DNA of 23,267 bases from assembly GCA_000961805.1 (NCBI GenBank), contig LADV01000342.1:1-23267 (forward strand), read 5' to 3'. Source of the stretch: Peptococcaceae bacterium BRH_c23. GTDB lineage: Bacteria; Bacillota_B; Desulfitobacteriia; Desulfitobacteriales; Desulfitobacteriaceae. A program made the translations under genes and the position numbers. Below the pieces are notes generated by a model. That model was given only the letters and a program-made list of their open reading frames with translations. It searched no databases and was not told the DNA's origin. Of this stretch, positions 82-18,406 are shown in pieces; positions within the stretch are counted from its first letter, which is position 1, and every line of letters starts with the position of its first letter.

Positions 82-137
82 CTCTTTCCAACTTGAATTT
101 GTATTTAACATCTCGGTTTTCCATAGAAATATAATTC

Positions 138-219
138 AACCTGTAGGAACTACCTGGAAATTTATTTATTTTAACCTGTAGTTTATACGGATGTACAAAT
201 ACTGGAATAATCTTATAAT
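138..219 (+). promoter_or_regulatory. Activator-type promoter with two tandem dyad operators (copy 1)
   Basis: Two imperfect dyads, CCTGTAG-gaac-TACCTGG (from 140) and CCTGTAG-ttta-TACGG (175-190), start 35 bp apart. TATAAT at 214-219 is a perfect -10 box. The hexamer 17 bp before it is ATGTAC, which is not a -35 box, so an activator is probably needed. With a start near 226, the second dyad is centred about 43 bp upstream, the classical position for an activator touching RNA polymerase, and the first about 77 bp upstream. Almost the same sequence recurs at 9218-9298. The dyad halves read outward-in as TAC-type half sites, like those of NarL-family regulators such as ComA, which is encoded in this window. 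Confidence 0.75.
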
Positions 220-225
220 AAGTCA

Positions 226-501
226 GGAACTGTGCAGTTTAAGTAAATAATGGTAAGAGGATATTCAATCGAAAGAATGCCTTTTGAATTTAAGGTGCTA
301 AATTAATATCTGTTATTGCAGAGGGGAAAAGACGCAGCAAGGGTCTTAACGTCGAATAGGATGAATATTTGGGACTAGCGTATTTAGTGTTAAGACAATT
401 TAAGGGGGTGAAGGACGACTACGAGACGCCAATAAATCTGAATAAGATAGTCCATTGTCTAGAGCAGAGAAAACCTAAATATAGAGAGGAGAATTCATTA
501 C
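226..501 (+). other. Long 5' leader of the secreted Ig-like protein gene, no recognised riboswitch
   Basis: About 275 nt lie between the predicted transcription start and the start codon at 502. I recognise no riboswitch or T-box in it. Visible structure includes ATTCAA (263-268) with TTGAAT (284-289). There are also two mutually exclusive short stems around 329-353: AAGAC/GTCTT and GACG/CGTC. An open frame from a TTG at 369 runs into the gene but has no convincing ribosome site. The leader does not resemble the one at 9305-9512 beyond the promoter itself. Confidence 0.4.
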
Positions 502-1632
502 ATGAAAAAAATGAAAAAAGCGTTAGCTTCATTAGCAATTGCTGGTATGGCGCTTACTATGATTCCATTTAATGCTTTCGCTGAGGGGACAGTCCCGACA
601 GGTGCGGGAACTGCTACACAAATTGCGATACAAATCGCTGACCAAGGTGGTTCTTCACATACGACAACTCTTGACCAAATCGTGACTGAAATTATATCGT
701 ACCGTGGTTATCTTAATCCGAGTGAAAAAGCTTCCCTAAATGAAGCCAGAACAAACTTGTTGACTGCAGTACAAGATGGGACTTTAATCAGTGCCGCCGA
801 TGGACTTTTGACGGATCAAATAGTTGCAAAATTTCATGCAAAAGGTGTTACGAGAGCTGATGCAAAAGTGGCAATCATCAAGTCCCTCCTGGATTTTCAA
901 GCGATTCACTATACTGATGACAACGCTACTATAGAAAGAGCACTCGTAAAGTTTAAAACCGAGAATGGGAAAACATTCAGAACGCTTTTCGGAGATGACT
1001 TTAAAATAGAATTATTCTATGGTTTCATGATGGCTACGCAAGATGAACTCCAAAAAGAGATCAAAAAAGAAATTAAGAAAAATCCATCCGTTATATTAGG
1101 CCTTGTAGGCAGTTCTAACACAGAAATCAAGGATAAATTAGTTGAATGGCTGAAAATAGCCTTGCACAATGTTGCAGATCCTGAAAATAGTAAGTACCAC
1201 GTCTTTGATCAAAAGCTCGCAGATATTGGCTGGAATATAGATTTACTTGTTGATACGCAACGTCAGGTAGGGGCGGTCATTGACCCATCGAATGCGGCTG
1301 AAAAAGCAGTGGCAATGTCTGTTATTCGCTCTCGAATCCAATGTAAAATCAACGGTACTATCTGCGATCCCTTGACGCCTTTGGAATTAAAAAAAGGTAA
1401 TAATAAACTTAAACTTGTTCTTTCTGTCAAAGGGATAGATACTGGTGCATTTAATCTTGCAGGCCTGCTTGCTTGGAAGACCGATAATTCAGCGATTGCG
1501 ACTGTTGCCGAGGATGGCTCTTCAATTAAAGCCGGTACTACAAAAGGTACAACAGTGATAACTGCTTATAGAATGAATGATTCACAAGTAGAAACGAACG
1601 AGTTAATTAAGATCACAGTAGTTGTAAATTAA
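502..1632 (+). CDS. Secreted protein with C-terminal bacterial Ig-like domain
   Basis: The 376-residue product has a classical signal peptide: Lys-rich start, hydrophobic core at about residues 7-22, and AFA at 25-27 followed by EG, so cleavage after residue 27 is likely. The C-terminal stretch, roughly residues 290-376, has the hallmarks of a BIG2-type immunoglobulin-like fold (WKTDNSAIATVAEDGS, then KGTTVITAY). The middle, about residues 30-280, is polar and probably helical and matches no family I recognise. Two cysteines at 281 and 288 could form a disulphide. A GAGAGGAG ribosome site precedes the ATG by about 10 bases. The gene stands alone between the operator-bearing promoter (138-219) and its own terminator (1696-1728), so it would be made strongly and separately. 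Its place beside an EPS locus suggests an extracellular matrix or surface role, but the function is unknown. Confidence 0.85.
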   Translation: MKKMKKALASLAIAGMALTMIPFNAFAEGTVPTGAGTATQIAIQIADQGGSSHTTTLDQIVTEIISYRGYLNPSEKASLNEARTNLLTAVQDGTLISAADGLLTDQIVAKFHAKGVTRADAKVAIIKSLLDFQAIHYTDDNATIERALVKFKTENGKTFRTLFGDDFKIELFYGFMMATQDELQKEIKKEIKKNPSVILGLVGSSNTEIKDKLVEWLKIALHNVADPENSKYHVFDQKLADIGWNIDLLVDTQRQVGAVIDPSNAAEKAVAMSVIRSRIQCKINGTICDPLTPLELKKGNNKLKLVLSVKGIDTGAFNLAGLLAWKTDNSAIATVAEDGSSIKAGTTKGTTVITAYRMNDSQVETNELIKITVVVN

Positions 1633-1695
1633 TTGGGATTTGCTCAACGCTTGTATTACACTCGCTGAAGTTGCGGGAGAAGACATATGGATTAT

Positions 1696-1728
1696 ACAGA
1701 GAGTTGGGGATTCCAGCTCTCTGTTTTT
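1696..1728 (+). terminator. Rho-independent terminator after the secreted Ig-like gene
   Basis: Arms 1696-1707 (ACAGAGAGTTGG) and 1713-1724 (CCAGCTCTCTGT) pair over 12 positions with one G-T pair, around a 5-base loop, and run straight into five Ts (1724-1728). It separates the gene at 502 from the CWB2 gene at 1803, which therefore needs either its own promoter in 1729-1790 or read-through. I see no clear sigma-A promoter there, only an inverted repeat CTCAAA...TTTGAG at about 1758-1779 just before the ribosome site. Confidence 0.9.
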
Positions 1729-1802
1729 AAGTTAATCTTTTCAAGACAGAGATTTCACTCAAACTTATTGAAATTTGAGCAAATGTTTAAGGGGGATACG
1801 AC

Positions 1803-3230
1803 ATGCGTAAAAAATGGCCACGGCTATTCTACACAAGCATGGCTATCAGCTTAGCAATCGTTTTAGGGTTTTTAGTACAAATGTGCTCCGCCGCGACGGT
1901 GACTCCCTCAATATCCAGTTTCAGTGCAACAGCAGTCACTCGCTTAGGAGGGATAGACCAATATGAAACCGCAGCAAAAATTGCCGGGCAAGGTTGGGCA
2001 GGAACTTCGGATGTGGTTGTCCTTGCAGCGGGCATGGCGCCTAATTTAGTGGATGCCTTGGCGGCAGGGCCATTATCTGCTAAGCTTGAGGCTCCATTGA
2101 TTCTTACGGATGGGGGAAACCAGCTTAATGCTTGGGCGAAACAAGAACTTCAACGTCTAAAACCTTCAAAGGCCTTTATCATTAGCGGAACGGCTGTGAT
2201 TAAGCCGTCGGTCTTAGTAGAACTTAAGGAAATGGGAATCACCCCTGTTGAGCTGGGTGGGTATGATCAATACGAAACATCGGTAAATATTGCTAAAGAA
2301 ATGATCAACCAGGGAGTGCAAGTTTCTCAAGTCATTGTAGCCGCTGGGTGGACGTCTTCTGCGGATGCCTTATCGATTGCTGCTATCGCCGCAACTCAGG
2401 GCATACCCATAATGGAGACCACCTGTGACGCCTTGCCCCCCTCGGTTAAATCGTTTTTGGATAGTCTTTCCGGCATTACAGATTCTTATGTCATTGGTGG
2501 CATGGCTGTTGTAGGTAATACTGTGCAAGCCCAACTTCCGGGAACAACTCATCGTTATGCTGGATTGACCAAATATGATACAAATATTGAGGTCCTGAAA
2601 GGGTTTAAGGATGTTCTTCAGAATGAAAAAATCTACGTGGCTAATGGAGAAACCTTAGTAGATGCCTTGGCTGGAGTGCCATTGGCGGCTCAGAGCTCCT
2701 CAGCAATTCTCTTGACCGATCAGACGTTACCTACGACATCCTGCGACTATACGTTACTGAATGTACCCACTGAAGTTATAGCACTGGGTGGACAAGCTGT
2801 CGTGCCCCAGAGTATCTTAGAGTATGTGATGTCAACTCAGCCAGCTCCTCTGCCAGGATCTACACAGCCGACTATTAAGGTTCTTAAGATTCAAATGCAT
2901 ACGGTTCCTTCATACAACTCAGATGAAATGAGTAATGGCTCAACCGTTGACATGAGTGGTGCTCCGGATACGACTCAAGTGACTGGCTTTAGTATCACCG
3001 TTGACCAGTATTGCGACTTGCAATTGGATGGGATCGATAAAACCATTCCTCTTTCAGGAGGACAAGCTACCCTAGTGAACCTTGATGACTTAATTGCAGG
3101 AACACACGGTGGAAATGGGATTAGCTTAAGAACATTTAGAGCGTTTTACGGCAAGAGTGTTACAATTCAAGGGGAGCTCAAAAAAGATGGCAACGTCGCT
3201 GGAAATCTTTTGATGACGATAAAGCTCTAG
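1803..3230 (+). CDS. Exported CWB2 (cell wall binding repeat 2) protein with extra C-terminal domain
   Basis: The 475-residue product has an N-terminal export signal (hydrophobic core about residues 11-27, possible cleavage near SAA at 29-31). It then has three CWB2 repeats (PF04122). They start at about residues 46 (TRLGGIDQYETA), 149 (VELGGYDQYETS) and 250 (HRYAGLTKYDT), each ending in a hydrophobic 'isgG-avv' strand. In Clostridia such triplets anchor proteins non-covalently to cell-wall polymers. Residues after about 350 follow a Pro/Thr-rich linker and form a roughly 110-residue domain I do not recognise. The ribosome site is AAGGGGGA just before the ATG. The gene lies 42 bp before the co-polymerase gene with no terminator between, so it probably belongs to the polysaccharide export operon. 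It may hold matrix polymer or a matrix protein at the wall; that is inference. Confidence 0.9.
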   Translation: MRKKWPRLFYTSMAISLAIVLGFLVQMCSAATVTPSISSFSATAVTRLGGIDQYETAAKIAGQGWAGTSDVVVLAAGMAPNLVDALAAGPLSAKLEAPLILTDGGNQLNAWAKQELQRLKPSKAFIISGTAVIKPSVLVELKEMGITPVELGGYDQYETSVNIAKEMINQGVQVSQVIVAAGWTSSADALSIAAIAATQGIPIMETTCDALPPSVKSFLDSLSGITDSYVIGGMAVVGNTVQAQLPGTTHRYAGLTKYDTNIEVLKGFKDVLQNEKIYVANGETLVDALAGVPLAAQSSSAILLTDQTLPTTSCDYTLLNVPTEVIALGGQAVVPQSILEYVMSTQPAPLPGSTQPTIKVLKIQMHTVPSYNSDEMSNGSTVDMSGAPDTTQVTGFSITVDQYCDLQLDGIDKTIPLSGGQATLVNLDDLIAGTHGGNGISLRTFRAFYGKSVTIQGELKKDGNVAGNLLMTIKL

Positions 3231-3272
3231 GCAGATCGAACATGTTTTGCGGGACTATTTTGGGAGGTCGAC

Positions 3273-3965
3273 ATGGAAGAGAAAATTGAATTACGGCAGT
3301 ATTGGGACGTGCTGCGAAAACGTTGGATGATCGTGGTGGCCTTGCCGCTCATAGCGGCACTCACCAGTGGAGTTATTAGTTTTTTTGTGATTAAACCAGT
3401 TTATCAAGCTTCAACAACGCTGATCGTTGGAAAGAAAGCTTCGGAGTCTGGCCAAGCGGCAGTACAAATGCTCGATAATAGTGTACTTCAAGCTAACCAA
3501 CAACTTGCTAAAACTTATGCAATGATCGCGCAGAGTCGTACCGTCGAACAAAATGTGATCACGGATTTAAACTTGCCACTGACAGTCGAAGGGCTCGACA
3601 GTATGATCTCAATAAATCCAGTAAAGACCACGGAAATTTTGGAAATCCAAGTGACCAATACAAACTCTGAGCTGGCAGCCTCGATTGCCAATACAATGGC
3701 GCAAGAGTTTTCTAAAGCTGTTATTGACATCAAAAAAGTGGACAGTGTAAGCATTGTGGATACTGCAGTGATCCCGGATAAGCCCATTAAGCCAAGTAAA
3801 ACCCTGAACGTACTGATTGCCTTTGTTGTGGGCCTTATGGCTTCTGTTGGACTGGTCTTCTTACTGGAATATCTGGATAACACTGTAAAGACTTCGAGTG
3901 ATGTCGAGAAGCTTTTGGGGATTCCAGTACTGGGCATCATCCCAGACTATGAAATGGGAAAATAA
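3273..3965 (+). CDS. Wzz-like polysaccharide co-polymerase / BY-kinase activator
   Basis: This 230-residue membrane protein has the layout of CapA/CpsC/YwqC-type chain-length regulators. It has a cytoplasmic N-terminus (ELRQYWDVLRKRW), a first membrane span at about 19-40, an extracellular coil-rich part at about 41-175, a Pro-rich motif (VIPDKPIKPSK, 167-177), a second span at about 179-199 and a short cytoplasmic tail. In Gram-positive bacteria the tail activates a separate BY-kinase, which is encoded 21 bp downstream. Together they control the length and amount of polymer made by Wzy. The ribosome site is GGGAGG, 6 bases before the ATG. The length is typical for the Firmicute form, which lacks the kinase domain fused in proteobacterial Wzc. 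Confidence 0.93.
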   Translation: MEEKIELRQYWDVLRKRWMIVVALPLIAALTSGVISFFVIKPVYQASTTLIVGKKASESGQAAVQMLDNSVLQANQQLAKTYAMIAQSRTVEQNVITDLNLPLTVEGLDSMISINPVKTTEILEIQVTNTNSELAASIANTMAQEFSKAVIDIKKVDSVSIVDTAVIPDKPIKPSKTLNVLIAFVVGLMASVGLVFLLEYLDNTVKTSSDVEKLLGIPVLGIIPDYEMGK

Positions 3966-3986
3966 GGGCAAGAGGGGGAGATTTGA

Positions 3987-4697
3987 TTGGCATATTCATT
4001 AATTACCTTAGAGCAAACAAAATCCCCGATCTCAGAGGCCTATCGGGCGCTCAGAACAAATGTCCAGTTTACGAGAGTGGATTCAGAGTCTCAAAAAATA
4101 ATGGTCACGAGCTCTGGTCCTCGTGAAGGGAAATCTCACACAGTCGCTAATCTTGGGGTTAGTATGGCTCAATCGGGAAAATCCGTTCTGATTATCGATG
4201 CTGATTTGCGTAATCCCACTCAGCATAAACTATTTGGGTTGGATAATGGAGAAGGGTTATCGGTTTCCCTGGTTCAGGATCAAGACTATCATAAATATAT
4301 CAGGGAAACGACTGTGCCCGGTGTCATGGTTCTCCCGGCAGGTCCCGTTCCGCCAAATCCTGCAGAGCTTGTCGGATCCAAACGGATGAAACGCCTGATC
4401 GAGGAAGTCAGTGAGCAATTTGACATGGTCCTCATCGACACTCCTCCCATTATTGCAGTTACAGATGCCGCGATTCTTGCCCAGGAAGTTGATGGAGTCA
4501 TCTTAGTCTTAGCCTCAGGGGAAGTGAACAAAGGTTATGCGCAAAAAGCCAAGGAACAGCTGGATAAATTGGGGGTCAAGATCCTCGGGGCTGTTCTGAA
4601 TAAAGTGGACCTGAATACCAACGAATACTACCATTACTACTACTATAACGCTTCTGACGATACTGAGAAGAAACATAACCGTCATAAAGCCCGCTAA
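3987..4697 (+). CDS. Bacterial tyrosine kinase (BY-kinase, CpsD/CapB/YwqD family)
   Basis: The 236-residue cytoplasmic kinase autophosphorylates a C-terminal tyrosine cluster and cycles with the co-polymerase to regulate polysaccharide assembly. Visible are the conserved EAYRALRTNVQF (17-28), a Walker A loop (SGPREGKSHT, 43-52), Walker A' (VLIIDAD, 67-73), Walker B (VLIDTPP, 148-154) and a tail with six tyrosines in seven positions (214-220). The Walker A is slightly unusual: PREGKSH replaces the common PGEGKST. The start is a TTG at 3987 with an AGAGGGGGAG site 6 bases upstream; no better start exists before the conserved N-terminus. No clear terminator follows, so read-through into the comX region is possible. 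Confidence 0.93.
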   Translation: MAYSLITLEQTKSPISEAYRALRTNVQFTRVDSESQKIMVTSSGPREGKSHTVANLGVSMAQSGKSVLIIDADLRNPTQHKLFGLDNGEGLSVSLVQDQDYHKYIRETTVPGVMVLPAGPVPPNPAELVGSKRMKRLIEEVSEQFDMVLIDTPPIIAVTDAAILAQEVDGVILVLASGEVNKGYAQKAKEQLDKLGVKILGAVLNKVDLNTNEYYHYYYYNASDDTEKKHNRHKAR

Positions 4698-4752
4698 AGC
4701 AAATCAGCCGCAATCCCACACATATCTTTTTGGCGACATTGTTTCGTAAATA

Positions 4753-4774
4753 CTTTAAGATTGCTAATCTAAAG
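4753..4774. promoter_or_regulatory. Dyad in the comX upstream region (possible operator)
   Basis: The 184-bp gap before comX contains CTTTAAGATT-GCT-AATCTAAAG, an inverted repeat of about nine pairs per arm with one unpaired base. It is too weak and lacks the T-run for a terminator, so an operator is more plausible. I see no convincing sigma-A promoter: GATAAT at 4774-4779 and CATAAT at 4814-4819 are possible -10 boxes without good -35 partners. The CCTGTAG operators found elsewhere in the window are absent here, so autoregulation of the pheromone genes through that element is not supported. Confidence 0.25.
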
Positions 4775-4842
4775 ATAATCAGCGGAGTAGAACGTCATAA
4801 ATACACAGATTCGCATAATATTTTCCCAAATAGGAGGAATTT

Positions 4843-4863
4843 ATGAATAAATGTCAAATCTAA
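4843..4863 (+). CDS. Possible six-codon leader ORF before comX
   Basis: ATG at 4843 opens a six-codon frame (MNKCQI, stop at 4861-4863). It is preceded at the right distance by TAGGAGGAAT (4831-4840), one of the best ribosome sites in the window. It ends 18 bp before comX, which has its own site (AAAGGAAAGGGGG). It may be a translated leader, or the strong site may be the remnant of an older start. Nothing in the peptide suggests a function. Confidence 0.25.
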   Translation: MNKCQI

Positions 4864-4881
4864 AGGAAAGGGGGAATAAAA

Positions 4882-5082
4882 ATGAACTTTGACAACATTG
4901 CTGAATTAGTTCACGAATTAGCCAAAAATCCAAACCGTAGCTCAGTAATAATACCACAGTTAAAATCTAGCCGTGAAATTACTAACTGCGAATTGGATGC
5001 AATAACAAAGGTGTTCTCGAATGAAGAATTGTCGGGTAATTCCTTAGCAGCTAGAATGTTACCGACTCGTTTTTGGTTCTAG
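4882..5082 (+). CDS. comX: ComX-type pheromone precursor
   Basis: This 66-residue peptide is the likely precursor of an isoprenylated quorum-sensing pheromone. Its N-terminal part (IAELVHELAKNPNRS, about residues 6-20) resembles the 'I..lv..L..nP' start of ComX precursors. The C-terminus ends PTRFWF, with a tryptophan at 65, the residue ComQ-type enzymes prenylate in ComX. The identification rests mainly on context: a ComQ-like prenyl transferase starts 13 bp downstream, followed by ComP and ComA. Two features are unusual compared with the Bacillus examples I remember: comX lies before comQ instead of after it, and the tryptophan is penultimate, followed only by phenylalanine. The ATG is preceded by AAAGGAAAGGGGG. 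The length of the mature peptide cannot be read from the sequence. Confidence 0.8.
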   Translation: MNFDNIAELVHELAKNPNRSSVIIPQLKSSREITNCELDAITKVFSNEELSGNSLAARMLPTRFWF

Positions 5083-5095
5083 GGGCCAGGTGATC

Positions 5096-6037
5096 ATGAA
5101 TATGGACCAAATTATTGCGAAGGAAATAAAACTGCTTTTAACTGAATCAGGGCTTAGCAAGGGTGTAGTAAGCATAATTAATAGTTGGCTTGATTCCAAT
5201 TTTAGAATCAAGGGAAGGTATGGATGGGCCCAATTAACGCTTATGACTTGCGATTGCACTGGGGGGTTCTTAGAAGAAGGCCTACAAGGAGCAGTTGCTA
5301 TGGAACTCTACGCCTTGGTAGCGGATATTTTGGACGATATTCAAGACCAAGATAACAACGAACTTCCCTGGCGTAAAGTTCCTCCTGCGCAAGCGATTAA
5401 TTTAGCTACTTGTATACTAGTTCTTAGCTACAAAGCCCTTTCGACTTTATCTAATCGCCGTCACTTCGAGGATGTAAGCAAGGTTCTTAACCAAATGGGG
5501 TTACAAGCGTGTGATGGCCAATTTCAGGAGTTTTTGAATGACAGTAAAGAGAAAATTTCGCTTGAAGAATATTTCGAGATTATTAAGAAAAAGTCAGGCG
5601 GCTTAACTGCTAGTGCCTGTAAAATTGGGGCGATCTTAGGAGGCGCTGAACAAACACTTGTCGACCAGTTTGAACAATTCGGGTTGACATTAGGTTTAAT
5701 AAGTCAAATCAAAAATGATTTCCATGATTTTTTAAATTTGGAAACAAAAAGTGATTTCGTTAAGCGAAGGAAAACTTTACCGTTCGTTTATCTTTTATAT
5801 GTTCTTAATGAGATAAAAGCTGAAGAGTTTAAACGCCTTAGTTCTTTGGCGATCATAGGTTTAGATCAATTCGGTCCAAAAGAAAGAGGACAGTTAAGAG
5901 AATTGGTTGTAAATGAGGGGACTATTCATTATTGTTCGGTGATTCACGAGATGTATAAACAACGTGCGATGGAGATTTTAGACGGTATCCCGATTTCGGA
6001 AAAAAGTAAAAAGAAGTTGATTCAGCTTGTTGGATAA
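5096..6037 (+). CDS. comQ: ComQ-like isoprenyl transferase (pheromone modification)
   Basis: The roughly 313-residue product belongs to the trans-isoprenyl diphosphate synthase fold. From the ATG at 5096, the first Asp-rich motif is DDIQD at residues 80-84, within VADILDDIQDQD. The second is the ComQ-like NDFHD at 207-211, in QIKNDFHDF. These bind Mg-diphosphate of geranyl or farnesyl diphosphate. In ComQ the prenyl group is moved to the ComX tryptophan and the peptide is then processed. A GTG at 5090 with AGGGG just upstream is an alternative start adding two residues; ATG at 5096 has AGGTG close before it. The gene follows comX by 13 bp and its stop lies one base before the first comP ATG, so the three are very probably co-translated. 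Confidence 0.88.
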   Translation: MNMDQIIAKEIKLLLTESGLSKGVVSIINSWLDSNFRIKGRYGWAQLTLMTCDCTGGFLEEGLQGAVAMELYALVADILDDIQDQDNNELPWRKVPPAQAINLATCILVLSYKALSTLSNRRHFEDVSKVLNQMGLQACDGQFQEFLNDSKEKISLEEYFEIIKKKSGGLTASACKIGAILGGAEQTLVDQFEQFGLTLGLISQIKNDFHDFLNLETKSDFVKRRKTLPFVYLLYVLNEIKAEEFKRLSSLAIIGLDQFGPKERGQLRELVVNEGTIHYCSVIHEMYKQRAMEILDGIPISEKSKKKLIQLVG

Positions 6038-6038
6038 A

Positions 6039-8369
6039 ATGTATAGGCGGCTAGCATTTCGAATTGCTAATGCCGCCTTTATTATAGTTTGCCTTGTGTA
6101 TTTTACTGTTCTAGTCGGGCACCCATATGTAGGTCTTGGCATTGAAAGTAGGGAAGGAGAATGGAACGTTACTTTTAGTGATCCCCATGGCGAGGGTTAT
6201 CGATTGGGGATTCGTGTAGGGGATATGGTTTTAAAAATTGATAACGACGACCCAGGAAAGTATCCTTCTACTGAAAAGTGGGGTGAGATAGAAGGAGCCT
6301 CAACGATTACCGTAAAAAGTTCTGGAGAGCCGATTAGAGTTGTCCAAATAGCTAAACCGCCTTTAACATATACATTGCTAAGTGAACTCCCGATGGCGGC
6401 TCTAGGATTTATCTTTTGGCTGGTAGGTCTTGTTACAGTATTTAAGCGACCTTTCCTAGTACAAGCTCGTGCTATATTCTGGTTAAATTGGCTCGTCGGA
6501 TTAGTCATAATTTTAGCCCCTGCCTCAAGTCGTGGATTGATATTGGCGAGGGAACTTGAGGTAATCGGTTTCTCGATCGTACCAGTCCTATTGGTGAATT
6601 TTGTTTCTGTTTTGAATAACACACTTAATAGATTAAATCGACTTATAATTTGGGTCTTATGCCTAATTTCTGCACTTGTAGTTACGATTCTAATTTTAAA
6701 AGGGTTAGGAGCTGTTTTTGCGGTTGTAGAAATAAGAAAACTGGCGCTAGCCAATGGGCTGATCGGTACCGTTACAGTTTTATGGAATTTAGTTAGACTT
6801 GTTAAATTACCCACTGATAAACCCGAGAAGAACCAGGCAACTATTGTGTTTGCAGGATTAGCAATGGGGTTGTTGCCTTTTATTATACTTACAGCGATTC
6901 CAATCCTCCTTGATATTGACTTTCTCGTTAATCCTAAGATTAGTACTCTCTTTATTGCGATTGTTCCGATTACCCTTAGTTATGTTGTCGTAAATGAGAG
7001 CTTGCCGGATGGTCGTAAGTTCTTTCACTTTATTATTAGTTCTTTAGTTTCTGGTATTCTAACAAGCTGGTTTTTTACTTGGTTTTTACTGCTAATAGGT
7101 GTTATTAAAAAGTTAAAAAGTGAGACTTATCTATTAGTGTTGTCTTTAATCATAATGGCACTATTCATCTTTAATCTTTTTAAAGCTTTATTACATTATG
7201 CAATTGATATGATCCTTGGTACGGATGGGAATTCTAGAATTGAAAATAAAAACGTTGAACTAAATGGAAATCCGTCTTCTGTGAATGAAGCTTTAATAGT
7301 AGAAGAGTTAGTAAAGCAACTTGGGCTTGAAGGCGCCTTTGTTATAGCAGAGGATATGAAAGGTTGGTACACAAAAAGTGCTGTAGGACGATACCTTGGA
7401 AATACAACAGAACAAGCAATCATGGAGGATTATTACCGAACAGCTAAAAGCACAAGTCATTCCATTAAAACTTTTTCTAGCGATTTTCCTGTGGAGATGT
7501 ATATACCCTTTGTTTCTGACGATTTTACATGTGGAATGTTCCTAGGCCATCGTCGTTCCCATATCAGATTTCAATCAAATGAGATACTGCTGCTAACTTC
7601 GGTGTGTTATCAAATAGGTCAACGCCTCAAAGCGATCCGTTTCATAAAGCAATTGTCTAGGGAAATAAACGTAATGGACAAAAAGTCTCGGGAATCACAA
7701 CGAAGAAGCCAGGGACTGGAAGTAATCAATCGATTATTGTTTAGTAACCTCGAGGAAGAAAAGAAAGTTTTAGCGCGGGAAATACATGACGGATCATTAC
7801 AGATAGGCTTGGATCTAAACCGGAGGATGAAGGAATTAATTGCGAATTTTTCGACTGAGAATAATAGTTTTTATACTGTCTCAGTTATGCAGGATATGAT
7901 AGAGGATTTGAATTACGAACTTCGTTCAATATGTAGTAATTTACGTCCATCCTCTTTGAGGGATTTGGGTCTTATTCCTGCAGTCGAGGTTCTGTTTCAG
8001 CAAATCATGCAAAAAGAGCTTTTAGTAATATTTCTAGAAGTAATAGGAATGGGTAGAGAACATCGGTTTAAAGAGGATATTGAAGTGGTAGCATTTCGCT
8101 TTTTGCAAGAAGGAATTAATAACGTTGTGAAGCACTCAGGTTCGACCAAAGCAAATGTCACCATTACCCTGGAAGATGAGAGACTTGAAATGATCATTAA
8201 TGATTCCGGTAAAGGGTTTGACCCCCAGAAGATCGCCGATTGGTCTCTAGTGGGCAATCATTTCGGAATAATTGGAATGAAAGAAAGAATAGAAAGCTTA
8301 GGTGGGGAGTTTTATATTACTTCAAATATTGATCATGGGGTAACGCTTAAGGCTTCTATTCCTATTTAA
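6039..8369 (+). CDS. comP: ComP-like pheromone sensor histidine kinase
   Basis: This large membrane kinase is about 776 residues from the ATG at 6039; two TTG codons at 6027 and 6030 would add a few residues and overlap comQ. A first membrane span (about residues 6-23) is followed by an extracellular PDZ-like segment of about 80 residues (GYRLGIRVGDMVLKID) and then about nine further spans up to about residue 390. This is the ten-span plus PDZ layout known for Bacillus ComP. A GAF-like region follows. The HisKA_3 dimerisation box carries the phospho-acceptor His at about residue 583 (LAREIHDGSLQIG). The HATPase domain shows an N box (EGINNVVKHSG), G1 (NDSGKGFD) and G2 (HFGIIGMKERIE). It would sense the modified ComX peptide and phosphorylate the ComA homologue encoded 80 bp downstream. 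Confidence 0.92.
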   Translation: MYRRLAFRIANAAFIIVCLVYFTVLVGHPYVGLGIESREGEWNVTFSDPHGEGYRLGIRVGDMVLKIDNDDPGKYPSTEKWGEIEGASTITVKSSGEPIRVVQIAKPPLTYTLLSELPMAALGFIFWLVGLVTVFKRPFLVQARAIFWLNWLVGLVIILAPASSRGLILARELEVIGFSIVPVLLVNFVSVLNNTLNRLNRLIIWVLCLISALVVTILILKGLGAVFAVVEIRKLALANGLIGTVTVLWNLVRLVKLPTDKPEKNQATIVFAGLAMGLLPFIILTAIPILLDIDFLVNPKISTLFIAIVPITLSYVVVNESLPDGRKFFHFIISSLVSGILTSWFFTWFLLLIGVIKKLKSETYLLVLSLIIMALFIFNLFKALLHYAIDMILGTDGNSRIENKNVELNGNPSSVNEALIVEELVKQLGLEGAFVIAEDMKGWYTKSAVGRYLGNTTEQAIMEDYYRTAKSTSHSIKTFSSDFPVEMYIPFVSDDFTCGMFLGHRRSHIRFQSNEILLLTSVCYQIGQRLKAIRFIKQLSREINVMDKKSRESQRRSQGLEVINRLLFSNLEEEKKVLAREIHDGSLQIGLDLNRRMKELIANFSTENNSFYTVSVMQDMIEDLNYELRSICSNLRPSSLRDLGLIPAVEVLFQQIMQKELLVIFLEVIGMGREHRFKEDIEVVAFRFLQEGINNVVKHSGSTKANVTITLEDERLEMIINDSGKGFDPQKIADWSLVGNHFGIIGMKERIESLGGEFYITSNIDHGVTLKASIPI

Positions 8370-8449
8370 AGATTATAATGAGTAATGGTTAGGCGAAGTT
8401 AGTGTAATTATCAGGTAGACATGGGGATGCTAGTAGAGGAGGAATTATT

Positions 8450-9139
8450 ATGGTCTCTGGCTCGGAGAAGACTATAAGAGTGGTAGTAGTGGATGACCAT
8501 ACACTCTTTGCGGAAGGTACTGTAGCATTGCTATCTTCTGAGCCTTATATTTCTGTAGTGGGAACTGCTAAGAATGGACGTGATTGTTTAAAAATAGTGA
8601 AGACGGAATATCCGGACGTGGTATTACTTGATATTAATCTTCCGGATTTCTGTGGCACTGATTTAATAGAGAAAATTAAAGAGCTAGCTTCAAATGTCAG
8701 TATTATTATGCTTACTGGACAAAACCCAGAAGAGTATGTTAATGACTCCTTAAATAAAGGTGCCCATGGCTTTCTTCTTAAAGACTGTTCAAAAACGGAA
8801 ATGACTACGGCAATAATACAGGCCTCTAGTGGTAAGTACTATTTTTCCCAAAATATGGCCCAATATCTTAGATCTGTGATTGTTGGCGAAGAGATTAGTA
8901 CCAATATTATAGAGGCCGAAAAAATCCATGGTACATCACTTACTCCAAAGGAAATAGAAATAATAGACTTGATTGCCCAGGGCTTGCGCAATAGAGAAAT
9001 CGCTGCCACGTTGGGCATTAAAAACCGCACTGTGGACTTCCATGTTAGCAACATACTGTCAAAGTTAGGCGTTAAATCCCGTTTAGAAGCTGTATTGATT
9101 TATACAAAAGACAAAATGGAAAGCGCTAAGATTAGTTAA
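8450..9139 (+). CDS. comA: ComA-like response regulator (NarL/LuxR family)
   Basis: The 229-residue product has an N-terminal receiver domain: acidic pair D15/D16 in VVVVDDHTLF, phospho-acceptor D61 in VVLLDINLPD, Thr in IIMLTGQ, and Lys in GFLLKD at 111. It has a C-terminal LuxR-type helix-turn-helix at about 164-219 (LTPKEIEIIDLIAQGLRNRE, then TVDFHVSNILSKLGV). Phosphorylated by the neighbouring ComP, it should dimerise and activate transcription. The strong site GAGGAGGAATTATT precedes the ATG. It ends just before a hairpin terminator, beyond which lies one of the two tandem-dyad promoters, an attractive candidate target. No autoregulatory dyad of that type lies upstream of the cassette itself. 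Confidence 0.92.
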   Translation: MVSGSEKTIRVVVVDDHTLFAEGTVALLSSEPYISVVGTAKNGRDCLKIVKTEYPDVVLLDINLPDFCGTDLIEKIKELASNVSIIMLTGQNPEEYVNDSLNKGAHGFLLKDCSKTEMTTAIIQASSGKYYFSQNMAQYLRSVIVGEEISTNIIEAEKIHGTSLTPKEIEIIDLIAQGLRNREIAATLGIKNRTVDFHVSNILSKLGVKSRLEAVLIYTKDKMESAKIS

Positions 9140-9156
9140 GAGAGTGATCTAAAATT

Positions 9157-9199
9157 GAATGCAAAAGAGTCACACATGATGTGTGGCTCTTTTGCATTC
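9157..9199 (+). terminator. Strong hairpin terminator closing the comXQPA cassette
   Basis: Two 20-base arms (9157-9176 and 9180-9199) pair with a single G-T position around a 3-base loop (TGA). The descending arm contains CTCTTTT, and the ascending arm contains AAAAGAG, so the structure could stop transcription on both strands. It isolates comA from the polysaccharide promoter that starts 20 bp downstream. Confidence 0.88.
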
Positions 9200-9217
9200 T
9201 GCTATCAATTTTGAATT

Positions 9218-9298
9218 AACCTGTAGGAAATACCGTGGAATTTATTTATTTATCCTGTAGCTTACACGGATGTACAAATATTGGAGGCGTCTTATAAT
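9218..9298 (+). promoter_or_regulatory. Activator-type promoter with two tandem dyad operators (copy 2)
   Basis: This copy repeats the element at 138-219. Dyads CCTGTAG-gaaa-TACCGTGG (from 9220) and CCTGTAG-ctta-CACGG (9254-9269) start 34 bp apart. TATAAT lies at 9293-9298, exactly 39 bp after the start of the second dyad, as in copy 1, and the -35 position is again ATGTAC. The dyads, the AT-rich stretch between them (TTTATTTATT), the block from the second dyad to ACAAAT, and the -10 box with CTTATAATAAGTCA are nearly identical, while the sequences on either side are not. Such selective conservation indicates function. It should drive the polysaccharide operon from 9385 or 9513 onward. The leader (about 9305-9512) holds a small ORF and a weak hairpin CACCTT (9324-9329)/AAGGTG (9340-9345). 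Confidence 0.78.
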
Positions 9299-9384
9299 AA
9301 GTCAAAATAGGGGAAGTGGTTCACACCTTTTACATCACCAAGGTGACATTAGGCCTTAAATAGAGGAAGAGAGGGGTGCCGGAT

Positions 9385-9519
9385 ATGAAGTTGATACCGT
9401 CAGGGGGTTCAGGGAAAACACCGCTATTGGATCATATATCGGAATGTAATCATATGGTACTCTTAGCGGATTCCACGAGAAGAATACTTCATCTCCAAGG
9501 GGGTGAGAGAAAATGTTAA
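9385..9519 (+). CDS. Small 44-codon ORF overlapping the sugar transferase start
   Basis: ATG at 9385 opens a 44-residue frame (MKLIPSGGSGKTPLLDHISE..., ending GGERKC) whose stop TAA at 9517-9519 overlaps the next gene's ATG at 9513 by seven bases. A GAGAGGGG site lies 8-10 bases upstream. The overlap suggests translational coupling. The part DHISECNHMVLLADSTRR with ILHL faintly resembles the opening strands of a PAS domain, and GGSGKT looks like a P-loop fragment, but the peptide is too short for either to work alone. It could be a genuine small protein, a coupling leader or the remnant of a longer regulator. No function is claimed. Confidence 0.45.
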   Translation: MKLIPSGGSGKTPLLDHISECNHMVLLADSTRRILHLQGGERKC

Positions 9520-10904
9520 GAGAATACGGGGCCATATTAGATGATATTTCCCAGTTAGTAGATTTAATTGTCCTTGGTTTAGGGTTTTTCTTTACTGTGG
9601 GGCTTTATCAATATAAACATGCTATGCCTGGGAGTGCTTGGGAACAATACTTTCTTATATTTTTGGTTTACAGCTTATGCTGGATGATTAGCTCTAACAT
9701 TAATCGAGTTTACCAGTCTAGGCGATTTATGTCCGCAGGTTTGGAAACCAAGCAGCTCATTAAAGCGCATGTAGTTACCTTTGCCATAACCATTGCGTCC
9801 GTTACATTATACGAGCCCTCGTTGATACATAACCGATTTGTATTTTACTTTGAGGCTACAGCGCTGTGTCTCACGTTAGGTGTACATTTAATGGTTCGAC
9901 TGATGCTGCAAGCTTGGCGTACGATAGGAAGAGATACACGTTATGTGCTAATCCTTGGTAGCGGACAAGCTGCTCACTCCTATTTAGATAAAGTCAATGA
10001 AAATCCTCAGTTGGGTTACAAAGTGGTCGGTTATTTAGCCCCTGAACGCAATGGTCTGGAGATACCTTACTTAGGTGATTATTCAAATCTCCAAACCGTA
10101 ATAGGTATGAAAATAGTAGATCTTACGGTTATCACAGCACCATTGTCAGATGAACGGGTGAAGAATTGTCTTGAATTACTGGATCTCATGGGGAAAACAT
10201 TAACGGTTCTACTTGATGAGACAGTAGCTAAAGTTGCTCGGAGTAGACCGATTGATTTTGGTGGACTTCCGATGGTTACCTATGATGGTCGTCCAAGACT
10301 ACCTGTGCAGGAATTAGCCAAGAGGGGCATGGATGTTGTTCTTACGGGTATTAGTCTTGTAGTTATAAGTCCGATTCTGTTGGCAATTGCGATCGCTATT
10401 AAAGTTTCATCTGAGGGGCCGGTTTTTTTTCCTCAAGAACGTGTGGGCTTAAATGGTCGGATCTTCAAGATGTATAAATTCAGATCGATGGTTGTGGATG
10501 CGGAAAAACTTAAGTCCAAGTTAGCTCATCTTAATGAGATGAGTGGACCGGTGTTTAAGATTACAAACGATCCTCGGGTTACTCCGGTCGGAAGGTTTTT
10601 AAGGAAGACGAGTTTGGACGAGTTGCCACAGTTATGGAACATATTCTTGGGCGAAATGAGTTTGGTCGGACCACGCCCTCCATTGCCGAGTGAGGTTAAT
10701 ATGTATGATCCGAAGCATCGAAAGAGGTTGGCAGTTAGGCCGGGGATTACATGTATTTGGCAGATTAGTGGGCGGAATCAAGTAGATTTTGATGAGTGGA
10801 TGGAAATGGATGCAGAGTATGTGGAACGATGGTCGTTATGGATGGATTTAGCGATATTGGCAAAGACGGTGCCGGTAGTGTTGGTGGGGAGAGGAGCGAG
10901 TTAA
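9513..10904 (+). CDS. Initiating sugar-1-phosphate transferase to undecaprenyl phosphate (CpsE/WbaP-like)
   Basis: The 463-residue membrane enzyme starts polysaccharide synthesis by moving a sugar-1-phosphate from its UDP donor to undecaprenyl phosphate. Four or so membrane spans fill roughly residues 10-130. A CoA-binding-like nucleotide fold follows (VLILGSGQAAHSYLDKV, about 145-161). After a further span, the C-terminal bacterial sugar transferase domain (PF02397) starts near residue 270 (KRGMDVVL). It shows the conserved PQERVGLNGRIFKMYKFRSM, DELPQLWNIFLGEMSLVGPR and RPGITCIWQISGRN blocks. The length is typical of the family. AAGGGGGTGAGAG supplies the ribosome site. Glucose or galactose is the usual substrate, but specificity cannot be read here. 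It is the first large gene after the operator-bearing promoter, fitting regulated commitment to polymer synthesis. Confidence 0.94.
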   Translation: MLREYGAILDDISQLVDLIVLGLGFFFTVGLYQYKHAMPGSAWEQYFLIFLVYSLCWMISSNINRVYQSRRFMSAGLETKQLIKAHVVTFAITIASVTLYEPSLIHNRFVFYFEATALCLTLGVHLMVRLMLQAWRTIGRDTRYVLILGSGQAAHSYLDKVNENPQLGYKVVGYLAPERNGLEIPYLGDYSNLQTVIGMKIVDLTVITAPLSDERVKNCLELLDLMGKTLTVLLDETVAKVARSRPIDFGGLPMVTYDGRPRLPVQELAKRGMDVVLTGISLVVISPILLAIAIAIKVSSEGPVFFPQERVGLNGRIFKMYKFRSMVVDAEKLKSKLAHLNEMSGPVFKITNDPRVTPVGRFLRKTSLDELPQLWNIFLGEMSLVGPRPPLPSEVNMYDPKHRKRLAVRPGITCIWQISGRNQVDFDEWMEMDAEYVERWSLWMDLAILAKTVPVVLVGRGAS

Positions 10905-17317: not shown

Positions 17318-18406
17318 ATGAGCAAGAAAATTGGAATTCTTACTTTCCACAAGGCGGTAAATTATGGTGCTGCCTTACAATGTTTCGCCTTATATCGAGC
17401 AGTAAAAAGTACAGGTTGTGATTGTGAAGTGGTCGATTACTTATATGATAATTATAAATGCAATAATACATTTCGAGGAAGGCTTTCAGGTGGTTTTAAA
17501 AAAATAATAGAATATATATTGATGTATCCTACACGTTCTATTCGTAAGAAGAAAATTGAAGAATTTTTAATGCGAAATACTACATTATCAGAAAAATTAT
17601 ATACGCCCCAAAACATTGCAGATTCAAATCAAATTTATGATAGTTTTATTGCTGGTAGTGACCAGATATGGGATTTAAAAAAAACAGGGAATGATCTAAA
17701 TTTTTATTTATCCTTTATAAAGGATGCCAAAAAGAAAAACTCTTATGCTGCAAGTTTGGGTGAGATTACACCTTCGGTGAAGGAGTGCTTAAGGCGGCAG
17801 CTTATGGATTTTAACCATATCTCTGTTCGTGAAAAAGATTTGCAAGAGGCGGTTGAATTTGAAACAAAGCGAACTGCAGAATTGTTAATAGATCCAACGT
17901 TTTTGATAGATAAAATTGAATGGATGGAGCACGCTGTCACTCCGAAGGAAAATAATTATATTTTGGTTTATACTTTAGCAAAGTCTCCCGATTTATTTTC
18001 GTTTGCAAAACAACTTGCCAAAAAAACTGGTTTAAAAATCATATATTTGTCAGTTAGAGCAGAAAGACCTCTTCACACAAAGATTGTTTCAACTGCTGGT
18101 ATAGGCGAATTTTTAGGATACTTTAGTAAGGCAAACTATGTTCTTACAAATTCATTTCACGGTACTGCTTTTTCCATTATCATGGAAAAAGAGTTCTTTA
18201 TTGGTTTGCATAAAGAAACACATATGGGTAATGCACGACTGGAAACATTACTCGATAAATTTGGGTTAAATAATCGTTTACTTGAAAATAATTTGGAGTT
18301 AGATTTGAACAAAACCATAGATTATGAAATAGTACGTTCACGGATCAAACAAGAAAAAAAGTATGCCTTCACATTTTTGAATAAGATTATTTCTAATATA
18401 GAATAG
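17318..18406 (+). CDS. Polysaccharide pyruvyl transferase family protein
   Basis: The 362-residue cytoplasmic protein matches PF04230. It has the N-terminal GILTFHKAVNYGAALQCFAL, central SFIAGSDQIWD and AASLGEI segments, a LLIDPTFLID strand, and the C-terminal ANYVLTNSFHGTAFSIIMEK. Members transfer a pyruvyl group from phosphoenolpyruvate to a hexose, forming an acidic ketal that gives negative charge to surface polymers. The FrhB-like gene two positions downstream is a frequent companion of this family. The ribosome site is AAAAGAGG before the ATG. The target sugar is unknown. Confidence 0.9.
   Translation: MSKKIGILTFHKAVNYGAALQCFALYRAVKSTGCDCEVVDYLYDNYKCNNTFRGRLSGGFKKIIEYILMYPTRSIRKKKIEEFLMRNTTLSEKLYTPQNIADSNQIYDSFIAGSDQIWDLKKTGNDLNFYLSFIKDAKKKNSYAASLGEITPSVKECLRRQLMDFNHISVREKDLQEAVEFETKRTAELLIDPTFLIDKIEWMEHAVTPKENNYILVYTLAKSPDLFSFAKQLAKKTGLKIIYLSVRAERPLHTKIVSTAGIGEFLGYFSKANYVLTNSFHGTAFSIIMEKEFFIGLHKETHMGNARLETLLDKFGLNNRLLENNLELDLNKTIDYEIVRSRIKQEKKYAFTFLNKIISNIE

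Follow-up and report, generated by a model that had tools for sequence, protein, structure and literature searches.

The 23,267-nucleotide contig LADV01000342.1 of Peptococcaceae bacterium BRH_c23 (hereafter the window) is Desulfosporosinus-like, the nearest named relatives of its ComA belonging to Desulfosporosinus, and carries a comQXPA-like quorum-sensing locus together with two near-identical promoter modules, box 1 and box 2, each composed of two tandem dyads and a -10 hexamer. Since such boxes occur almost only where a close ComA exists, the sensor very probably turns on genes for slime (exopolysaccharide, EPS) and surface proteins, and perhaps itself; on the strength of comparative sequence evidence we assign a probability of roughly 0.8 to the proposal that the window ComA binds and activates both modules. 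The boxes and the genes behind them provide a concrete candidate binding motif and target set for ComA outside Bacillus, for which no published equivalent was found in the open-access literature, and would mean, if the proposal is true, that these anaerobes make matrix and surface proteins under quorum sensing.

That the two modules are near-identical is confirmed. Local alignment of window positions 133-225 with 9214-9304 scored 115, the best of 3000 random pairs of 200-bp chunks reaching 48, and CCTGTAG-N4-YAC occurs four times in the window, at 140, 175, 9220 and 9254, as two tandem pairs, against a mean of 0.02 such dyads in 100 dinucleotide shuffles, none of which held four. A first-pass annotation of the same DNA had given a dyad spacing of 34-35 bp and a 39-bp step to TATAAT, and rightly so in both modules: the dyads lie 35 bp (box 1) and 34 bp (box 2) apart, and TATAAT begins exactly 39 bp past the second CCTGTAG in each. 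It had also described the surroundings as unrelated, but here an A/T-rich stretch between the dyads and a ATGTACAAATA stretch are shared as well as the dyads, and the whole of about 92 bp is for this reason treated as one module. The -35 that it had called non-functional, ATGTAC, is indeed poor in the 17-bp register, but TGTACA with a 16-bp spacer matches four of the six consensus bases, and the -35 is thus weak rather than simply absent.

Relatives were searched with a pattern drawn from the window only (two CTGTAG-N4-YAC with 13-30 bases between them, the -10 left out), and this matched 19 times, in eight of the 29 genomes of the genus. Exactly those eight also have a close ComA (79-93% identity for the best match), the pattern thus occurring in 8/8 genomes with a close ComA and in 0/21 others (Fisher p 2e-7, relatedness ignored); six of these 21 have only a relative of about 50-55%, and 15 have none at 1e-40. 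About 0.2 pairs were expected by chance over all 29 genomes, and the reversed pattern was found in none of them (0/29). TATAAT, which lies outside the pattern, stands exactly 39 bases past the second CCTGTAG in all 18 matches read, the nineteenth (G008:C1:323125), a triplet repeat by eye, having been left out without reading downstream. With the two window modules and six mismatch-tolerant finds in com loci, and leaving out two L135 rows that read one site again, shifted or on the opposite strand, these 18 make up an aligned set of 26 sites, in which the dyad spacing is 34 (15 sites), 35 (6), 33 (4) or 32 (1), the -10 stands at +39 in 26/26 (TATAAT in 25, TATACT in one), and the core GTA-N5-TAC is present in 22/26 upstream and 19/26 downstream dyads. 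The elements, their fixed geometry and their co-occurrence with a close ComA are thus directly observed. The first-pass annotation had ascribed the dyads to the ComA homologue and had proposed a two-dyad search of related genomes as a check; that search came out in its favour, and the ComA interpretation is supported.

Shared descent was considered with a tree of a single gene, GuaA, covering all of the 29 genomes but G019 and G024, in which no GuaA match was obtained (27 genomes), and with some node supports down to 0.19. On this tree the presence of a close ComA switches at least six times, so that the ComA genomes do not make up a single clade, and near neighbours differ in both traits (G008 versus G005/G013; G007/G009 versus G012). 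A profile, R1, built from the 26 sites found 30 places in the genus at E<=1e-10, 28 of them in the eight ComA genomes and the other two in G022 and G027, one each. Eighteen of the 28 lie within about 11 kb of the close comA and 10 elsewhere, one of the latter only 21 kb from comA; the unlinked site of the single-contig genome G011 is 1.4 Mb away, while in draft genomes a separate contig does not prove distance. Because linked boxes come and go along with com, unlinked boxes weigh more, and by the pattern these occur in 5/8 ComA genomes and 0/21 others (p 5e-4).

The layout of the window, on which the proposed mechanism draws, is as follows.

140..157, +: upstream dyad of box 1, CCTGTAGGAACTACCTGG, GTA-N5-TAC core
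175..190, +: downstream dyad of box 1, CCTGTAGTTTATACGG, centre near 183, about -43 from the predicted start
192..197, +: weak -35-like TGTACA of box 1, 16-bp spacer
214..219, +: -10 of box 1, TATAAT, start predicted near 226
502..1632, +: sec502, secreted surface protein with a helical region and an immunoglobulin (Ig)-like C-terminal part, first gene past box 1
1696..1724, +: terminator-like hairpin separating sec502 from cwb2, possible attenuator
1803..3230, +: cwb2, CWB2 cell-wall-binding protein (Pfam)
3273..3965, +: wzz
3987..4697, +: bytK, BY-kinase-like gene
4882..5082, +: comX-like pheromone precursor, 66 aa, C-terminal PTRFWF
5090..6037, +: comQ-like polyprenyl synthetase
6027..8369, +: comP-like sensor kinase
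8450..9139, +: comA-like response regulator, receiver plus GerE helix-turn-helix (HTH)
9220..9238, +: upstream dyad of box 2, CCTGTAGGAAATACCGTGG
9254..9269, +: downstream dyad of box 2, CCTGTAGCTTACACGG
9271..9276, +: weak -35-like TGTACA of box 2, 16-bp spacer
9293..9298, +: -10 of box 2, TATAAT, start predicted near 9305
9513..10904, +: EPS glycosylphosphotransferase, first large gene past box 2, more EPS genes following

Box 1, sec502, cwb2, wzz, bytK, comX-comQ-comP-comA, box 2 and the EPS genes thus form one same-strand series. The two promoters had been said to flank the quorum-sensing cassette, and so they do, but box 1 does more than flank it, being aimed on the same strand into the whole series from sec502 to comA. 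Binding by ComA, its dependence on phosphorylation, activation, induction at high cell density, the start sites, read-through and feedback are predicted along the following lines. ComX pheromone would engage ComP, giving phosphorylated ComA dimers that would occupy the two GTA-N5-TAC dyads of each module, the downstream dyad near -43, beside the weak -35, in what would be a class II position, and the upstream dyad, 32-35 bp further up, in a class I position; both would jointly bring RNA polymerase to the perfect -10. Box 2 would serve the EPS operon and box 1 sec502 and, probably by read-through, wzz-bytK-comXQPA, in which case the pheromone system should amplify itself.

Taken together, the genes behind the boxes in the relatives make a coherent set for cell surface and matrix, which we count in favour of ComA: sec502-type surface proteins, CWB2 proteins, proteins with Big_2, Big_3, fn3 or LRR_5, EPS operons starting with a polysaccharide biosynthesis protein, a UDP-GlcNAc 2-epimerase, a subtilase, an ABC transporter and a second comA. 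The sec502 module is found at 12 places in 7/29 genomes; a box stands upstream of each of the 11 that belong to ComA genomes (nine strong boxes and two weak ones, the weak pair lying at about 3.28 Mb in G011), and the twelfth, distant (44%), is in G002. A module of some 330-340 aa of sec502 (window 502-1632) recurs in bigger Big_2/LRR surface proteins (L176:5987-8401; L178:2761-5529; L178:6207-9890; 87-88% identity) and in two CWB2 proteins (L129:4891-6948 and L131:4531-6606; about 52%), all of them behind boxes. The sec502 protein itself gave no match in a Pfam search; its predicted fold, of low confidence (mean pLDDT 61), is nearest to Ig-like Big_2 domains and has no match in the PDB at E<=0.001.

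Several observations weigh against the proposal that ComA acts through these boxes. Most boxes are com-linked, appearing and vanishing with com; the profile was trained on the very sites that it scored, and by the profile the contrast for unlinked sites weakens to 5/8 versus 2/21 (p 0.008). R1 matches 11 of the 29 genus genomes, the eight being joined by G022 (2.3e-23), G027 (2.4e-15) and G006 (1.5e-6). G022 holds a strong box and G006 a half-box at a contig end, with no com system detectable in either (no ComQ at 1e-20 and generic kinases only, gaps in the assemblies being possible), and G027, which also holds a box, has a divergent com system, whose comA ceases to match beyond residue 69 in the portion read. 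The boxes at L175, L130, L134 and L169 have no clear target gene. Boxes in com-free genomes such as G022 and G006 would be expected if the dyads were bound by another regulator of surface or EPS genes that shares the patchy distribution of the com locus, and NarL/LuxR-type regulators are a large family able to bind GTA/TAC half sites. We nevertheless hold such a regulator to be unlikely, given the exact match of the pattern with close ComA across at least six changes, the clustering of boxes at comA, and the boxes 3' of a comA remnant in G051 and of a divergent comA in G033.

It is more improbable still that ComA binds but chiefly represses, or has a mixed effect with feedback activation absent. 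Knowledge at the sequence level leaves some room for this, as does the sec502 hairpin, which may halt read-through to com, but the downstream dyad at about -43 by a weak -35 is where an activator would sit, and Bacillus subtilis ComA has been proposed as a class I and class II activator (PMC4797271). Nor does much speak for the modules being a recently copied promoter cassette or dispersed repeat, alike through copying and without a shared regulator: the likeness does span the spacer and the -35/-10 stretch besides the dyads, but all 26 sites keep the 39-bp step though dyad spacing varies from 32 to 35 and the leaders differ, and the pattern is absent from 21 congeners, so that we give copying only the slightest credence.

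Among known boxes, that of B. subtilis ComA is TTGCGG-N4-CCGCAA plus a direct repeat, and likewise has an inverted repeat above a poor -35 and a second site nearer the promoter, with a class I/II logic proposed (PMC4797271), whereas here there are two GTA-N5-TAC inverted dyads. The first-pass annotation had called the dyad unlike the Bacillus box, and TTGCGG-N4-CCGCAA is indeed not above chance in the window, which holds two weak matches, well away from the promoters, where 5.06 were expected. As a candidate at the 26 promoters the B. subtilis box was rejected, its best matches having 4-6 mismatches, the same as in shuffles. The Vibrio fischeri lux box, ACCTGTAGGATCGTACAGGT, shares its first 10 bases with the upstream-dyad consensus ACCTGTAGGA found here (PMC4444344), and a repeat ACCTGTACTAAAGTACAGGT 3' of comA in G002 and G026, the upstream one of the two there, matches it at 16/20 positions by eye count, although, being also a hairpin followed by T, it may be the comA terminator. 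The core CTGTA-N6-TACAG of this 20-bp palindrome is not reproduced, the spacing here being N5 and the right half different, and the local regulator, the predicted binder, is a receiver plus GerE HTH protein and not an acyl-homoserine-lactone receptor. LuxR acts near -42.5 within a self-activating circuit. The likeness to the lux box is likely convergence.

G002 and G026 have divergent ComAs with a distinctive HTH in common, and these are followed by pairs of TGTACTWWRGTAC 33-34 bases apart with a TATAAT; this pair pattern is found in 3/45 family genomes, namely G002, G026 and G031, the last of which has no com locus at 1e-20. For a proof that ComA protein and box changed together, two ComAs are too few. 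Among 13 divergent com loci inspected with guessed motifs, something stood 3' of comA in six and nothing in seven, and as a divergent-ComA box the ACGGRGGACAAA-type repeat of L136, L183 and L185 is no more than suggestive.

Positive feedback is predicted from the direction of box 1, on the same strand towards comXQPA, and from boxes in three relatives that stand immediately ahead of com genes: of wzz-bytK-comXQPA in G029, of comA2-comXQPA in G019 (with a small open reading frame, ORF, between) and of comX in G033. The first-pass annotation is extended by three points that it lacks: this placement of boxes in front of com genes, the resemblance to a lux box, and different repeats next to divergent ComA paralogues. 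A point against feedback is the terminator-like hairpin past sec502, which could limit read-through; none is listed between bytK and comX, in listings not above those of shuffles. For B. subtilis ComQXPA, a 2021 study reports that signal-dependent feedback is lacking and that no regulators of its operon are known (PMC7794433); if feedback exists here, two circuits built of like signalling components, one with it and one without, could be set side by side. In its boldest form the proposal would be a self-amplifying, lux-like ComXQPA switch, in which ComA, acting through tandem dyads that resemble lux boxes, switches on its own pheromone operon and a dedicated set of surface adhesins, EPS genes and a protease, box specificity having diverged together with the ComA HTH among com systems of the same family; we give this about even odds, slightly reduced by the seven of the 13 divergent loci in which nothing was found after comA.

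The com locus itself has its prenyl transferase, precursor, sensor kinase and response regulator adjacent on one strand. The ComX-like precursor bears a Trp near its C terminus, invariant in 16/16 aligned (12 of 30 matches plus four divergent loci), and the 66-aa protein has no Pfam match, to ComX or otherwise. The gene order is X-Q-P-A instead of Q-X-P-A, hence the label comQXPA-like. Such loci in Desulfosporosinus were already listed in 2014 (PMC4008528), in a clade other than that of B. subtilis, and they too encode a prenyl transferase, a short precursor carrying Trp at its C terminus, a sensor kinase and a LuxR-type regulator side by side on one strand; the order here is comX-comQ-comP-comA, and the available passages of that census give no binding sites or targets. 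By sequence, the HTH of the window ComA is nearer to NarL and VraR chains (E 1e-10) than to B. subtilis ComA (1e-8).

In wider searches R1 matched 12/45 family and 13/82 class genomes, the additions being G033 and G051. G033 has a divergent com system in which comP is split over two ORFs as read; weaker boxes stand directly before its comX and directly after its comA, and their -10 is not TATAAT; in G051 the box lies directly 3' of the C-terminal comA remnant, with no TATAAT at +39. An even draw of 398 genomes across the phylum, none of the eight included, gave the pattern in 3/398 (G051, G226 and G214) and the reversed control in 2/398; no TATAAT lies within 60 bases past the match in G226 or G214, and these two look like chance. 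Viral contigs gave at least 299 pattern matches at no fewer than 120 loci, with spacing a multiple of three in 295 of those listed and TATAAT at +39 in none of them; as true boxes they were rejected, the few read being coding repeats. A scan of all species genomes with the ComA alignment returned, among the matches listed, mostly other NarL-type regulators.

Other observations concern the leaders and the genes near boxes. The long leader of box 1 (window 220-501), which has no Rfam match, the sole RNA-family match elsewhere being sub-threshold and chance-like, is conserved with the L168 leader in G022. The G022 leader and first codons resemble those of sec502 genes, and tblastn found no sec502 body in G022. 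The hairpin CAGAGAGTTGGG..CCAGCTCTCTG between sec502 and cwb2 (window 1696-1724) has a similar counterpart in G008, in the L127 leader straight 3' of the box at 18078, and the common hairpin is a possible attenuator, terminator-like hairpin counts in the region being no higher than in shuffles. At 66-72, 5' of box 1, stands TTCGACA, which is similar to a Spo0A box and which box 2 does not share. The strong box at L175:6627-6719(+) has no sense-direction gene nearby, and small ORFs come first behind the strong boxes at L130:4256(+) and L134:7350(-); their targets are possibly small peptides or RNAs. Behind the L169 box an unidentified ORF of 359 aa starts about 590 bases downstream. In G019 a further comA-like gene (L125:3776-4468(+); 63-64%), whose HTH has diverged, stands between box and comX, and several species carry a second, divergent comXQPA (ComA about 50% identical; L136, L182-L187, L171 and others), in X-Q-P-A order wherever comX was seen.

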